Below are positions 36,003 to 59,372 of a DNA stretch of 64,000 nucleotides, in pieces. The position numbers and the translations under genes were made by a program. The stretch's first letter is position 1. Every line of letters starts with the position of its first letter. The notes below the pieces were generated by a model. The model did no database searches, was not told where the DNA came from, and saw nothing but the letters and a program-made list of their open reading frames with translations. Source of the stretch: Pseudomonas sp. HMWF032 (GTDB taxonomy: Bacteria; Pseudomonadota; Gammaproteobacteria; Pseudomonadales; Pseudomonadaceae); assembly GCF_003060885.1 (NCBI RefSeq), contig NZ_QAIG01000012.1, positions 107,157-171,156 of the forward strand, read 5' to 3'.

Positions 36003-37265
36003 ATGTCCGTTGCCCCTGATCTGTTGCTCAAGTCGGCGCCTGAAGTAAAGCCTCGTGCGACTGCAGCCAAAACGCCTGACAAGCCCGCCCAGCCCAGCAG
36101 TAATGAGCCTTCAAGCTTTTCTCAGGAGTACGCACGGGCGCGTCAGGCGAAAGCGTCAGAACGCAATGATAGCGTTGCAAAACCTGTGCGCGAGCGCAAA
36201 GCCGAACAAGACCCGAGTGCTGAACCGCAGCCTGCTGTTGCCGCCCCTGGGCAAAGTGCGGTTGCCGAGAGCGGCAAGTCTTTGCCGGAAGAGCCGGCTG
36301 TTGAGGGGGCTGTGCTCGACCCGTTATTGATGTTGGGGATTACCGGTGAGTTGCCGCCTGTAGCGCTGACGGAAGAGCTGCCAATAGAGACGGATTCCTT
36401 GCCGGTTGTTTCGGGTAGCTTGCTCAGTTCTGGTCCTGCCAGCATGACTGAGGCCAGTTTCGACGCCGAACTGGACGCGCTCAATCAGCTTCCTGCTGTG
36501 CGCCTGGCATTGGAAATGGGCGCCAAAGAGAATGCGGCGGCTGCTCAGGTGCAAGCACCTTTAGCGCAGGTTGATAAAGCCACGCAGAACGCAAGCCAGA
36601 GTCTTCTGGCCAGTCAGGTGGTTCAGGACGAGGTGCCCGTGGAGGAAGTGGGGCTCGAGTTGCCAGAGCTTCAGCTGGAAGCGCTCACCGGCAAGACTCT
36701 CGAAGCCTTGAAAGAGGGAACGGCGAACAACAGTTCGGATCATTTTGTCAGCAAACTTAATGCGCTGAGTCAGGCTATCGGGCAGCAGAGCCCGTTGGCG
36801 ACACGGGCACCTGTAGTTGGCCAACCCGTTTCTCTGCAGCAGAGTGGATGGAGTGAAGCGGTGGTGGACCGAGTCATGGTGATGTCCAGCCAGAACCTCA
36901 AATCAGCCGAAATTCAGCTTGACCCTGCCGAGTTAGGTCGCCTGGAGGTGCGCATCAGTGTTAACCAGGAGCAAAGTCAGGTGACGTTTGCCAGTCCGCA
37001 CGCGGGGGTCCGTGAAGCGCTGGATTCGCAGATGCATCGTTTGCGCGAAATGTTTGCCCAGCAAGGGATGAACCAGCTGGATGTAAACGTCTCTGATCAG
37101 TCACTCAATCGCGGTTGGCAGGGGCAGGACAGTGACAGCGGAAAAGGTCGTGGTAACGCTAATACAGGTATGCAGGAGGCTGATGATGCGGTCCAGTCGA
37201 GCGCTCTGGAGGTGGCCCGAGGCTCGTCAGTTACTGCCCGAGGCCTGGTGGATTACTACGCCTGA
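36003..37265 (+). CDS. fliK: Flagellar hook-length control protein FliK
   Basis: 420 residues. A long Pro/Glu/Ala-rich N-terminal ruler region followed by the conserved C-terminal domain (about 285-375): VMVMSSQNLKSAEIQLDPAELGRLEVRIS in outline, FASPHAGVREALDSQMHRLREMF. FliK measures hook length and triggers the substrate switch in FlhB. ATG at 36003 after CGGAGAG. Confidence 0.93.
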   Translation: MSVAPDLLLKSAPEVKPRATAAKTPDKPAQPSSNEPSSFSQEYARARQAKASERNDSVAKPVRERKAEQDPSAEPQPAVAAPGQSAVAESGKSLPEEPAVEGAVLDPLLMLGITGELPPVALTEELPIETDSLPVVSGSLLSSGPASMTEASFDAELDALNQLPAVRLALEMGAKENAAAAQVQAPLAQVDKATQNASQSLLASQVVQDEVPVEEVGLELPELQLEALTGKTLEALKEGTANNSSDHFVSKLNALSQAIGQQSPLATRAPVVGQPVSLQQSGWSEAVVDRVMVMSSQNLKSAEIQLDPAELGRLEVRISVNQEQSQVTFASPHAGVREALDSQMHRLREMFAQQGMNQLDVNVSDQSLNRGWQGQDSDSGKGRGNANTGMQEADDAVQSSALEVARGSSVTARGLVDYYA

Positions 37266-41873: not shown

Positions 41874-43010
41874 GTGGCGGAGTCCGAGAGTGGTGCTGAC
41901 AAAAGTGAGGAACCCACGGAGAAACGCCTGCGCGAATCCCGTGAAAAAGGTCAGATTGCCCGCTCCAGAGAACTCAATACCTTGGCTGTGACACTGGCGG
42001 GCTTCGGCGGCCTGCTGGCATTCGGCGCCAGCATGGGCAACGCGATGCTGGACATCATGCGCGGCAATTTCTCGTTGTCACGGGATGTCGTCATGGACGA
42101 GCGCAGTATGGCGCTATGGTTGGCTGCGTCTGGTCAGCTAGCCCTGGAAGCCTTGTTTCCGCTGTTTATGTTGCTGTTGATCGTGTCAATTGTGGGCCCC
42201 ATCTCACTGGGTGGTTGGCTGTTTTCCGCGGAGGCGATGGCCCCCAAACTTAGTCGCATGAACCCCTTGTCGGGGCTCAAGCGTATGTTCTCCACTGATG
42301 CGCTGGTGGAATTGCTCAAGGCCTTGGCCAAGTTCACGCTCATCCTGCTGGTGGGTATTGCGGTGTTGGCTGCTTGGCAGGACGACCTGTTGGCGATTGT
42401 TCATGAACCGATTGAGGCGGCCATTTTACACTCGGCCACGGTGGTGGGCTGGAGTGCTTTGTGGATGTCCTGTGGGTTGATTCTGATTGCTGCGGTGGAT
42501 GTGCCGTTTCAGCTCTGGAGTAACAAGCAGAAGCTGATGATGACCAAGCAGGAGGTCATTGATGAGTACAAAGACAGCGAGGGCAAGCCCGAGGTCAAAC
42601 AGCGGATTCGGCAGTTGCAGCGTGAGATGGCTGAGCGGCGCATGATGCAGGCGGTACCCGACGCTGATGTGGTGATTACCAACCCGACGCACTTTGCCGT
42701 GGCCCTGAAGTACGATCCGGCCAAAGGCAGTGCGCCGGTTCTGCTGGCCAAGGGCGGTGATTTTACGGCGTTGAAAATTCGCGAAATTGCCAATGAGCAC
42801 AAGGTCATGGTGCTGGAGTCGCCTGCGTTGGCGCGCGCCGTGTTCTATTCCACCGAGCTGGATCAGGAAATTCCGGCAGGCCTGTACCTGGCCATTGCCC
42901 AGGTGCTCGCCTACGTCTATCAGCTGCGTCAGCACCAGGCAGGCAAGGGCAAACGCCCGGCGCCGTTGCCGGAGCTACCGATCCCTCCGGATTTACGCCG
43001 CGACGAGTAA
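41874..43010 (+). CDS. flhB: Flagellar export switch protein FlhB
   Basis: 378 residues: N-terminal EEPTEKRLRESREKGQIARSRE in outline, four membrane helices, and a cytoplasmic domain with the self-cleavage motif NPTH (270-273). Cleavage there switches export from hook to filament subunits. GTG start immediately after the fliR stop. A separate FlhB C-domain-like gene occurs at 57342-57668. Confidence 0.97.
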   Translation: MAESESGADKSEEPTEKRLRESREKGQIARSRELNTLAVTLAGFGGLLAFGASMGNAMLDIMRGNFSLSRDVVMDERSMALWLAASGQLALEALFPLFMLLLIVSIVGPISLGGWLFSAEAMAPKLSRMNPLSGLKRMFSTDALVELLKALAKFTLILLVGIAVLAAWQDDLLAIVHEPIEAAILHSATVVGWSALWMSCGLILIAAVDVPFQLWSNKQKLMMTKQEVIDEYKDSEGKPEVKQRIRQLQREMAERRMMQAVPDADVVITNPTHFAVALKYDPAKGSAPVLLAKGGDFTALKIREIANEHKVMVLESPALARAVFYSTELDQEIPAGLYLAIAQVLAYVYQLRQHQAGKGKRPAPLPELPIPPDLRRDE

Positions 43011-56913: not shown

Positions 56914-57318
56914 ATGCTTGATGCGCTGCTGGTCACGGTGGCCCTGGTTTGTCTGGGGCTGGTCGCTGCATGCATCTGGTTGACCCGGCAGCTGCGTGAG
57001 GCTATCAAGCTGCAAGGCGAGCGTGATGCGCTACGTGATCGGCGGCTCAAGGAGCTAAGTCGGCGACTGGATGCTTATCTCACTGGCAGCGTGCAGATGG
57101 GTGAAGAGTTGCATGAGTTGCGCAGAGTTGTTGCGCCTCTGCCGGACAAGCTCAATCAGATTGAGCAGCGTGACCCCAGCAGTCTGTCATTTACCCAGGC
57201 TGCGCGACTGGCTGGCATGGGCGCCAGTGTGGATGACCTGACCCAGTCCTGCGGCCTGAGCAAGGCTGAGGCGGAATTGGTCAGCAAGATGCATCAGGCC
57301 AAACTGCAGCGTTCCTGA
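56914..57318 (+). CDS. DUF2802 membrane-anchored coiled-coil protein
   Basis: 134 residues. One N-terminal membrane helix (about 4-24), a charged coiled coil (28-85) and a C-terminal helical domain (QAARLAGMGASVDDLTQSCGLSKAEAELVSKMH in outline) that resembles a helix-turn-helix. The gene regularly follows cheW in Pseudomonas; its function is unknown. Three bases after cheW. Confidence 0.8.
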   Translation: MLDALLVTVALVCLGLVAACIWLTRQLREAIKLQGERDALRDRRLKELSRRLDAYLTGSVQMGEELHELRRVVAPLPDKLNQIEQRDPSSLSFTQAARLAGMGASVDDLTQSCGLSKAEAELVSKMHQAKLQRS

Positions 57319-57341: not shown

Positions 57342-57668
57342 TCAATGTGCCGGCCCTTCCAATAGGCGCAGGGGCGGCGTGATATCCGTGTCATGTTCGT
57401 TGCTGGTCGGCGCTTTCCCCTTCAGGTACCAGGCAAAGGCGATTATTTCCGCGATGCAGCGATACAGCTGTTCGGGAATTGCTTCGCCCAGTTCCAGGCG
57501 CGCCAACAGGCGCACCAGTTCGGCGTTTTCGTAGATCGGTACTTCATATTCGCGGGCGATCGCCAAAATGGCTTCGGCCAGCTCGTCATCGCCTTTGGCG
57601 CTGAGCACCGGTGCATTCTGGCCGTCATAGGTGAGGGCGATGGCCTGGCGTGGCGTGGTCTTTTTCAT
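57342..57668 (-). CDS. FlhB C-terminal-like protein (FlhX-type, no NPTH)
   Basis: 108 residues aligning with the cytoplasmic domain of FlhB after the cleavage site: RQAIALTYDGQNAPVLSAKG compares with FAVALKYDPAKGSAPVLLAKG of the FlhB in this window, and ends with AIIAFAWYLKGK. It lacks the NPTH motif and membrane helices. Homologues (FlhX in Helicobacter, YlqH in Bacillus) can stand in for the C-domain of FlhB. ATGA overlap with the FliK-like gene upstream. The role is inferred. Confidence 0.85.
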   Translation of the reverse strand: MKKTTPRQAIALTYDGQNAPVLSAKGDDELAEAILAIAREYEVPIYENAELVRLLARLELGEAIPEQLYRCIAEIIAFAWYLKGKAPTSNEHDTDITPPLRLLEGPAH

Positions 57669-59209
57669 GCGGTTTCATCTACCCAACGTTGTTCCAGGGT
57701 CGTGCGGGGGCCGCGCGGAGGAATACCCAGTGAACATGCCAGTTCGCCGACTTGCACGCCGGCGCTATTCAGGCGTTGGCGCAGATTGTCCAGTTCTGCA
57801 TCGATCAAGTTGACGGTGCTGTTTCGTTCTGCCCAAAGCTGGCTGGATAGACGGCCCTGCGCCAGTTGTGCTTGAACTTGCAGGGGGCCTAGAGGGTCCA
57901 GGTCAAAGGCCAGTTCGACCTTCCACAGAATTTCCTTTTTTTCAGGTTTGTTGGTTGGCTTGCTTTCATCACGCTGGATTTTGATTTGCAAAGGCACCAG
58001 CTCTTGCTGGTTGCGCATGGGCAATTCAAGTTGCCAGGTGGTGAGCAGGTTGCCGTCTGGGCCGACCTGGCTTTGTGCCAGGCTGGAAAGCTGATGGGTT
58101 TGCAGGCGCGAGATGGCGGCCGCGGCGAGCTTCAGTAGGGCCTCCAGGTCACTGTCGTCTTCCATGCCCTGCAGGATTCGTGAGGGCAATGGAAAACTCA
58201 GCGCCTGTTGGCGACTGCTGGACTTTCCGAGGCTGCTGAGCAGGTCGCGTGCCAGGGTTGGCATGGCTTGCGCCAGCGCTGAGCCGGCATTGGTTGCGCT
58301 AAGCAATGCGCCGGCGGGCATATTGGGTAATAGTTGTGTGATCAGGCGCAGCAAGTTGGCCTTGAGGTCGGTCGGCATCGACTGGCCCTGACCTCCAAGG
58401 AGTTTACTCTCCAACAGAATGCCACTGTTTTCCAAGGCCGCCGCCAGGCCTTTTGCAGTGCTCAGTTGAGTCGTGTCGGGTAATGCGCCGAAGAGTTTGT
58501 CGATACTGGTACGCAGACCTTCACTCATCTCGGCGTTGCCGCGCAGTCCTTGCAGGGCGCCAAACAGCCCTTCAAGGGCGCCCTGGCGATTGCTTTGGCT
58601 GCTCAGCTGCTGGCTCAGGGCAAGTTTGTCAAGGCGGCCACTCAGGGGTAGGAAATTCAGCGCCTGGCTGCCCTGCACCTGAGCGCTGAGCAGGCTACCC
58701 AAAGGCAGTGCCAGTGGGGTTTCCAGCGACAGCTTGCTGCCAGCCAGCGGAGTATTGAGCAAGCTGACCAGCACCTTGTAGATCACCTGTTGCGAGCGGC
58801 CCTGCAGCAATTGTTCGCGGGCCACTACCTTGCCCTGCAGCAGGGTGCCAACGGGCAATTGGTCGAGGTCCAGGCTGGTCAGAGGCTTGTCACCACCCAG
58901 CAGTACGGACAGTGCCAGGCGGGTTTCCGATAGGGCGGTTACGGTTACAGATGTGCCCTGAGCCAGCGGGCGCGGGCTAGCGGCTTCCAGGGTGGTCTGG
59001 CTGCCGTTGCTCAGGGTCAGCTTGAGCAGCATTTGAAAACTTTGCGCCACTTCCTTGAGGGCGATAACTTCGGCCTTGGCGGTTTCGCCACTGGCCAGCA
59101 AGCCTTGCATGGGCTGTAACAGTTTCACTGCCAGATCCGCCGCGACAGCGCTGGGGCGGCTGCTGGGGGGCGTTGGCGCAATAGGCCGCGGGCTGCTGAT
59201 TTCGCTCAT
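57665..59209 (-). CDS. FliK-like hook-length-control-related protein
   Basis: 514 residues. The C-terminal region (about 395-485) has LPMRNQQELVPLQIKIQRDE and WKVELAFDLDPLGPLQVQAQLAQGRLSSQLWAE in outline, the FliK C-domain pattern; the rest is Leu/Gln/Ser-rich. Begins SEISSPRPIAPTPPSS with ATG at 59209; 73 upstream codons reach past the divergent ccm promoter and are rejected. Paired with the FlhB-like gene by a 4-base overlap. Confidence 0.8.
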   Translation of the reverse strand: MSEISSPRPIAPTPPSSRPSAVAADLAVKLLQPMQGLLASGETAKAEVIALKEVAQSFQMLLKLTLSNGSQTTLEAASPRPLAQGTSVTVTALSETRLALSVLLGGDKPLTSLDLDQLPVGTLLQGKVVAREQLLQGRSQQVIYKVLVSLLNTPLAGSKLSLETPLALPLGSLLSAQVQGSQALNFLPLSGRLDKLALSQQLSSQSNRQGALEGLFGALQGLRGNAEMSEGLRTSIDKLFGALPDTTQLSTAKGLAAALENSGILLESKLLGGQGQSMPTDLKANLLRLITQLLPNMPAGALLSATNAGSALAQAMPTLARDLLSSLGKSSSRQQALSFPLPSRILQGMEDDSDLEALLKLAAAAISRLQTHQLSSLAQSQVGPDGNLLTTWQLELPMRNQQELVPLQIKIQRDESKPTNKPEKKEILWKVELAFDLDPLGPLQVQAQLAQGRLSSQLWAERNSTVNLIDAELDNLRQRLNSAGVQVGELACSLGIPPRGPRTTLEQRWVDETA

Positions 59210-59269: not shown

Positions 59270-59372
59270 CGCGCCCCGTCCGGTTCGGCTGCGCATTCCT
59301 TGTGCGTCAGTATAGCGGCCAAGACGCTGCCGACTTGAACAGCTTTTGCCATCCATCTTAGGTGCCGATGCC

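Follow-up and report, generated by a model that had tools for sequence, protein, structure and literature searches.

Why should a bacterium that encodes FlhB and FliK, the two proteins that control the flagellar export switch, carry a second pair of genes built from the same switch domains? The question is raised by two overlapping genes in a stretch of 64,000 nucleotides of the genome of Pseudomonas sp. HMWF032 (contig NZ_QAIG01000012.1, positions 107,157 to 171,156), hereafter called the window. In this analysis we named their products, of 108 and 514 residues, FlhX and FliK2. A previous sequence-only reading had described them as a protein resembling the FlhB C-domain and a FliK-like protein, encoded by genes that share a 4-base ATGA overlap and stand apart from the canonical flhB and fliK. 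We find both assignments to hold, and the comparison of genomes indicates that FlhX and FliK2 are evolutionarily tied, forming a unit of linkage and of co-occurrence. The pair therefore probably exerts a second control over flagellar export. The genes concerned lie in the window as follows.

57342-57668, reverse strand: flhX, encoding a stand-alone FlhB C-domain of 108 residues (the part of FlhB after the cleavage site), without NPTH and without the membrane part
57665-59209, reverse strand: fliK2, encoding a second FliK-type protein of 514 residues
57665-57668, reverse strand: the ATGA overlap of the fliK2 stop and the flhX start, read directly in the sequence
41874-43010, forward strand: canonical flhB, matching PF01312 over its full length with 422 bits, with NPTH in the translation
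36003-37265, forward strand: canonical fliK, matching PF02120 with E 6.6e-23 and ending in GLVDYYA

The start of fliK2 was taken at 59209, as in the earlier work. The overlap suggests that translation of the two genes is coupled. A search of the whole genome (4.39 Mb) gave exactly two places matching PF01312 and exactly two matching PF02120, which sets the pair apart from the canonical genes. FliK2 matches PF02120 (Flg_hook) with E 2.6e-17 and 62.8 bits, over the gathering score of 29.8, and FlhX matches PF01312 with E 2.8e-18 and 66.7 bits, over the gathering score of 24.4.

The two genes are found together across genomes

The FlhX query has a match in 86 of the 115 genomes of the window's order. 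The match falls in a short frame in 73 of the 115, and the rest are long FlhB frames. Among the 80 best named loci, 73 of which are titled Pseudomonas or Stutzerimonas, FliK2 is present with FlhX in all 80. The closest relatives are Pseudomonas-type genomes, with up to 94% identity in FlhX, and the nearest named ones are P. anguilliseptica (93%) and P. peli (92%).

For a more diverse sample we used 110 loci, one per genome, comprising the 30 best loci of the order, among them that of the window, and 80 taken from the order, class, and phylum. The 38 class and phylum loci were chosen by hand among the better-scoring short frames, and one stand-alone row (G022) was left out because its contig is short. 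A frame with a FliK domain lies at most 120 nt 5' of the FlhX domain, on the same strand, in 105 of the 110 genomes (the distance being that between the FliK frame's end and the point at which the FlhX domain match begins). The exceptions are L014, where FliK is 1.3 kb away, and L209, L212, L221, and L223. The genomes of L212 and L209 have a second FliK on the same contig, about 4 and 8 kb away, respectively. At L014 (1480-3255), the stretch of about 1.3 kb separates the end of a FliK2 C-terminal piece from flhX and is a possible insertion; the FliK domain frame of this locus runs off the end of the stretch.

Is the second FliK a general companion of FlhX, also when its position is disregarded? 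In a subset of 75 of the 110 genomes, all with FlhX, a second FliK was found in 73, of which 70 were detected by PF02120 and 3 more, beside flhX, by an iterated profile. Among 57 genomes with a full-length FlhB and without FlhX, a second FliK was found in none: 56 have one FliK and one has no FliK. These 57 genomes were hand-picked from those with a single match to the FlhX profile, and in every one FlhB was confirmed to be full-length and a free-standing C-domain to be missing. Further matches of the FlhB type occur in three (G155, G270, and G359). Both states occur within eight families (f9, f40, f44, f48, f50, f65, f82, and f86) and within two genera (g11 and g115), and the second FliK follows FlhX each time. 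In f40, f44, and G266 of f65, it was identified by the iterated profile or by adjacency, not by PF02120. The families and genera with both states argue for a co-occurrence that goes beyond shared ancestry, in a sampling that was not designed as a phylogenetic test. The joint conservation of the pair, which the sequence-only reading had named as one check of its proposal, is thus borne out in the named loci, in the adjacency, and in the co-occurrence.

Most genomes with FlhX also keep a complete FlhB. Among 37 such genomes that were checked, a full-length FlhB was found in 34, fragments in 2 (G016 and G022), and none in 1 (G010). We also searched for Flk (Fluke) of Escherichia coli, a candidate for an alternative guard, which was found in 7 of 74 genomes, all of family f53 and all without FlhX. 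This restriction to one family makes the result uninformative, though compatible with a mutual exclusion of Flk and FlhX.

The neighborhood is conserved among the best named loci. In the window, ccmA lies on the 5' side of the fliK2-flhX unit, and a gene with a DUF2802 domain and cheW lie on its 3' side. The order ccmB-ccmA-fliK2-flhX was read in 76 of the 80 loci, and 67 of them have DUF2802 and cheW within the stretch that was retrieved. The DUF2802 gene of the window (56914-57318) sits between cheW and flhX and faces the latter end to end.

FlhX is a free FlhB C-domain

The match of FlhX to PF01312 is confined to profile positions 262-334 of 335, and the N-terminal membrane domain of FlhB is absent from its 108 residues. 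A profile comparison with solved FlhB C-domains gave 3b1s with E 7.4e-17, in agreement with the likeness first noticed. NPTH, whose loss had also been pointed out, is missing around the start of the domain in the window's protein, as in all 110 diverse stand-alone frames (of which it is one) and in all 79 FlhX proteins of the Pseudomonas/Stutzerimonas type. Judged by its sequence, FlhX, being without the membrane part and without NPTH, is not a member of FlhB proper. Its best NCBIfam match is TIGR00789 (flhB_rel), at positions 3-77 of 84, yet the score of 70.5 bits is below the family cut-off of 117.35, and FlhX would not be named by that model. The identity of FlhX is argued here from sequence profiles because the structure models are too poor. 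The AlphaFold2 model, made from an alignment of Pseudomonas-type relatives, has a mean pLDDT of only 53.9; its top Foldseek row is 3b0z, with E 0.076, TM 0.30, and rmsd 12.8, and FlhB was not among the two VIA-align rows obtained for this low-confidence model.

We take A286, P287, A341, and L344 of Salmonella FlhB to be positions of the early-substrate pocket (Evans et al. 2013). A pocket for the gate recognition motif is described on FlhBc (PMC8983047). The corresponding residues in FlhX were placed by alignment.

57609-57614, reverse strand: FlhX A19-P20, equivalent to A286-P287 of Salmonella FlhB (A in 92 and P in 111 of 111 FlhX rows)
57441-57452, reverse strand: FlhX A73-I76, which holds the matches of Salmonella FlhB A341 and L344

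At A341, all 111 FlhX rows have A; at L344, 58 have I and 53 have L. Aligned in this way, the early-substrate pocket residues of FlhB are retained in FlhX. The 111 rows include the window's protein twice, and the FlhB rows used for comparison are those with NPTH (19 of 21, two being dropped).

We then asked where FlhX comes from. In a tree of 65 rows, FlhX and FlhB C-domains are split by one branch with an SH-aLRT of 99, and the split is found again with an SH-aLRT of 90 when FlhB of other classes are added (93 rows; 1 of the 20 further FlhB, without NPTH, was dropped). Both trees are quick and unrooted, from 91 and 86 columns, respectively. The position of FlhX on one side of a branch is most simply explained by one old paralogue. 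Recurrent local duplication of FlhB was considered as well and is not supported, since FlhX groups apart from FlhB, including those of other classes.

FliK2 keeps a FliK-type switching end

Three parts of FliK2 can be distinguished.

57716-57943, reverse strand: the FliK switch (T3S4/Flg_hook) domain, residues 423-498, identified by PF02120
57668-57682, reverse strand: the C-terminal VDETA, resembling the VDYYA with which canonical FliK ends
58652-59134, reverse strand: the N-terminal part, residues 26-186, predicted by AlphaFold2 to be all-beta (two small barrels)

The model of the whole protein has a pLDDT of 51.9 and no Foldseek match reaching E 0.001. The model of the C-domain, of low confidence, resembles the switch domain of PscP (5cuk: Foldseek probability 1.00, E 0.064, and an rmsd of 2.3 over 68 columns in the superposition) and matches the C-domain of FliK (2rrl: probability 1.00, E 0.061, rmsd 13.2); the VIA Z values of these two comparisons are 6.2 and 5.7. 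Among the 79 FliK2 of the Pseudomonas/Stutzerimonas type, 78 end in D-x-x-A and 65 in VDETA, and D is found at position -4 of the canonical FliK in 20 of 20 genomes. The tail that follows the switch domain has 17 residues in the window's family and 2-33 elsewhere. In Salmonella, the last five residues of FliK have been proposed to act on the FlhB C-domain (PMC13344023). With the switch domain and D-x-x-A retained, FliK2 keeps both parts of the switching end, at least in Pseudomonas.

The N-terminal part differs from that of the canonical protein. Residues 26-186 are modeled with a pLDDT of about 47-75 in blocks of 10 residues, and the structure matches obtained for this part (di-Mop, OB, EF-P, and S28e-like) are weak, with VIA Z of at most 7.2. 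Such values may reflect a common small barrel, and we read no function from them. The fraction of ILVFMWYC in the N-terminal part is 0.302 in the 79 Pseudomonas-type FliK2, 0.267 in 75 diverse FliK2, and 0.231 in 20 canonical FliK (p 2e-4 for diverse FliK2 against canonical FliK). With modest confidence, the predicted beta-rich structure and the greater hydrophobicity tell against a simple disordered ruler. The profile made from these residues recognised 4 frames and none of the 76 FliK2 of loci L145-L224. So few matches suggest that the front half of the protein evolves fast or is replaced.

A FliA-type promoter precedes the pair in Pseudomonas

A further element, which the sequence-only reading had not noticed, lies upstream of fliK2.

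59313-59338, reverse strand: a sigma28/FliA-type promoter, TCAA-N15-GCCGCTA, 129 nt 5' of the fliK2 start

Its sequence reads TCAAGTCGGCAGCGTCTTGGCCGCTA (59338-59313). We take TNAA-N15-GCCGNTA as the FliA consensus. In loci of the Pseudomonas/Stutzerimonas type, 77 of 80 upstream regions contain this pattern, and none of 1600 shuffles does; one of the 80 loci (L088) has no upstream region in this count. Counted over the loci, it is found in the sense orientation in 76 of 79 upstream regions, in the antisense orientation in none, and a single time elsewhere in 1.6 Mb. It is absent from three loci (L089, L091, and L100). A G, for which the pattern does not ask, follows TNAA in 76 of 76 occurrences. 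The bare pattern is not enriched genome-wide (53 matches against 71 in a reversed control), so the case for the promoter rests on its position and conservation. Among the 53 matches, 9 were inspected, and three of them lie upstream of genes whose products read as flagellin, FliS, and CheA; the remaining six precede different genes or nothing clear. From this conserved element, fliK2-flhX in Pseudomonas is very probably FliA-dependent and made after the export of FlgM. The pair would then probably be made after the normal switch and not alongside it. An in-frame ATG at 59296, 16 nt past the -10 element, would add 29 residues to FliK2. We also considered a FliA-type promoter as a general rule for the pair and rejected it; beyond Pseudomonas and its near relatives, the pattern was found in just 3 of 76 loci (shuffles: 3 of 1520).

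Relation to known systems

Free-standing FlhB C-domains are already known under the name FlhX. The FlhX of Campylobacterota, HP1575 in Helicobacter pylori, is one that accompanies a complete FlhB, and the 108-residue protein is of this kind, as the sequence-only reading had supposed, the genome encoding both the free C-domain and a separate full-length FlhB. YlqH of Bacillus is, we assume, a member of TIGR00789. The FlhX of Campylobacterota, likewise a free C-domain, is reported to be able to supply the FlhB C-domain in trans (PMC3040844). In a comparison with HP1575 and Nitratiruptor made by description only, three things set the protein studied here apart: an additional, dedicated FliK, the ATGA overlap, and, for Pseudomonas, the promoter of the FliA type. 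In Nitratiruptor, flhX-fliK is named as a locus outside the main flagellar cluster (PMC9321776), and a list of flagellar proteins of Actinobacteria includes FlhX as one missing from some classes (PMC10746217).

Compared with the cleaved fragment of FlhB (FlhB-CCD or FlhB-CC), FlhX is the same segment with the same pocket residues. It differs in being synthesized as a separate protein, neither cleaved nor anchored, in a one-residue deletion, and, in most cases, in a shortened loop. FliK2 shares the switch domain with FliK (PF02120) and PscP, and in Pseudomonas also the V-D-x-x-A ending of FliK; it differs from FliK in being a second copy with a short tail and with an N-terminal part that is predicted to be beta-rich and is more hydrophobic. 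Among the matches listed from the open-licence literature, none deals with the pair in Pseudomonas, with the rule of co-occurrence, or with the promoter, and neither YlqH nor YlqG appeared among those listed for YlqH/YlqG with FliK/FlhB. What appears to be new here, from sequence comparison, is the pair as a unit of co-occurrence, the conserved FliA-type promoter in Pseudomonas and Stutzerimonas, and the retention of the pocket residues and of the FliK ending.

What might the pair do?

From the tight co-occurrence, the retained pocket residues, and the C-terminal FliK ending in Pseudomonas, we infer that the pair may be a second, soluble substrate-specificity switch, as had been proposed. In Salmonella, FliK ejects the C-terminal fragment of FlhB when the hook is complete, and the loss of this fragment leaves the gate in late mode (PMC13344023). 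The C-domain of HrcU can work in trans, and the same is cited for the homologue of H. pylori (PMC3040844). Leaning on this ejection model and on the trans action of these proteins, we tentatively favor, at somewhat less than even confidence, a mechanism in which FlhX is a soluble replacement of the FlhB C-domain and FliK2 its dedicated partner, both acting late. FlhX would work in trans in place of the cleaved C-terminal fragment, and would either re-occupy the site that the fragment vacated or bind early substrates through its retained pocket. FliK2 would dock on FlhX through its switch domain and C-terminal tail, thereby removing or relieving it. In Pseudomonas, where the unit would be read from the FliA-type promoter, the pair would appear only after the first switch. 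It would hence be a late, resettable control of early-substrate docking, not the first switch itself.

Several observations weigh against this mechanism. Two genomes of genus g155 (G118 and G126, loci L221 and L223) have FlhX and only one FliK, which does not adjoin it; they are the only clear exceptions to the pairing among the 75 genomes with FlhX. One genome (G010, locus L169), 99% complete in 30 contigs, carries the pair while lacking any further PF01312 match and any match to FlhA. Either a flagellar contig is missing from this assembly or the pair was kept after the loss of the flagellum. A genome of the same genus, G052, has a fragment of FlhA. FlhX also lacks several residues conserved in FlhB, such as R320. 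The motif P-x-L-A-R/Q-x-[LIVM]-[YFH] is found in 0 of 111 FlhX rows, against 32 of 39 FlhB rows, and all 111 FlhX rows have a one-residue deletion near position 321 (Salmonella numbering). The loop from Tyr279 to Pro287 is mostly of five residues in FlhX (77 of 111 rows) and of seven in FlhB (26 of 39 rows), with minorities of seven in 20 FlhX rows and of five in one FlhB row; 8 FlhB rows could not be parsed. With the lost residues, the deletion, and the shorter loop, FlhX may not fit the FlhB site. In Salmonella, the deletion of FlhB loop residues 281-285 stops secretion, which the authors link to stiffness (PMC3640470). A naturally shorter loop is compatible, though weakly, with an FlhX that belongs to the gate and supports no export. 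As for the partner, D at position -4 is present in only 63 of 106 diverse FliK2 frames. Finally, conservation of the promoter pattern is limited to Pseudomonas and its near relatives, so late timing cannot be a general rule.

The loss of gate-side features (NPTH, R320, and the P-x-L-A-R motif) from a protein that kept its pocket residues is also what one expects if FlhX never enters the gate. It might instead be a cytosolic escort or decoy that holds FliK2, or early rod or hook subunits made after the switch, in its FlhB-like pocket and off the gate. The late promoter of the pair is in line with this explanation, as is the ATGA coupling of fliK2 and flhX, an arrangement that is common for a protein and its escort. 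We regard it as possible, if rather unlikely; it does not by itself explain why the partner is almost obligatorily a protein with a FliK-type switch domain.

A simpler explanation is that FlhX is a plain spare C-domain of FlhB and FliK2 one more ruler of that kind, without a control stage of its own. Wand et al. (2006) reportedly described redundancy of the FlhB C-domain involving HP1575 of Helicobacter. That redundancy (cited in PMC3040844) and the FliK-like ending retained by FliK2 of Pseudomonas speak for a spare part, but simple redundancy predicts neither the tight co-occurrence (73 of 75 genomes against 0 of 57) nor a separate late promoter, and the N-terminal part of FliK2, more hydrophobic and predicted with modest confidence to be beta-rich, is unlike a disordered ruler. 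We consider this unlikely. Even less likely, and in our view quite improbable, is that the pair regulates something besides the order of export, such as flagellar gene expression or chemotaxis. The presence of cheW and DUF2802 beside the pair in 67 of 80 loci would fit such a role, as would G010, with its pair and no detectable flhA or flhB; yet both proteins are built from export-switch domains, and 34 of the 37 genomes checked have a full-length FlhB. That the pair is a decaying duplicate without function, which the loss of NPTH and of the membrane part might suggest, is hardly credible, being already contradicted by the dozens of invariant residues that 49 Pseudomonas/Stutzerimonas-type FlhX proteins have in common, the single old lineage, the conserved partner, and the conserved promoter.

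Implications for the flagellar switch

Should the gate be the target of the pair, as in the mechanism that we favor, the switch of the Salmonella type would be the simpler case. The tight co-occurrence and the late promoter in Pseudomonas make simple and direct tests possible. The flagellar switch of Salmonella is described as irreversible, with FliK removing the FlhB C-domain (PMC13344023). In a more specific and doubtful form of our proposal, the pair would be a resettable second lock: FlhX, made late, would re-seat in the emptied site of the FlhB C-domain and re-impose early-substrate control or pause export, FliK2 would be its release factor, and the switch would work both ways. Were this so, a switch that is supposed to be one-way would be reversible in the many proteobacteria with such a pair.

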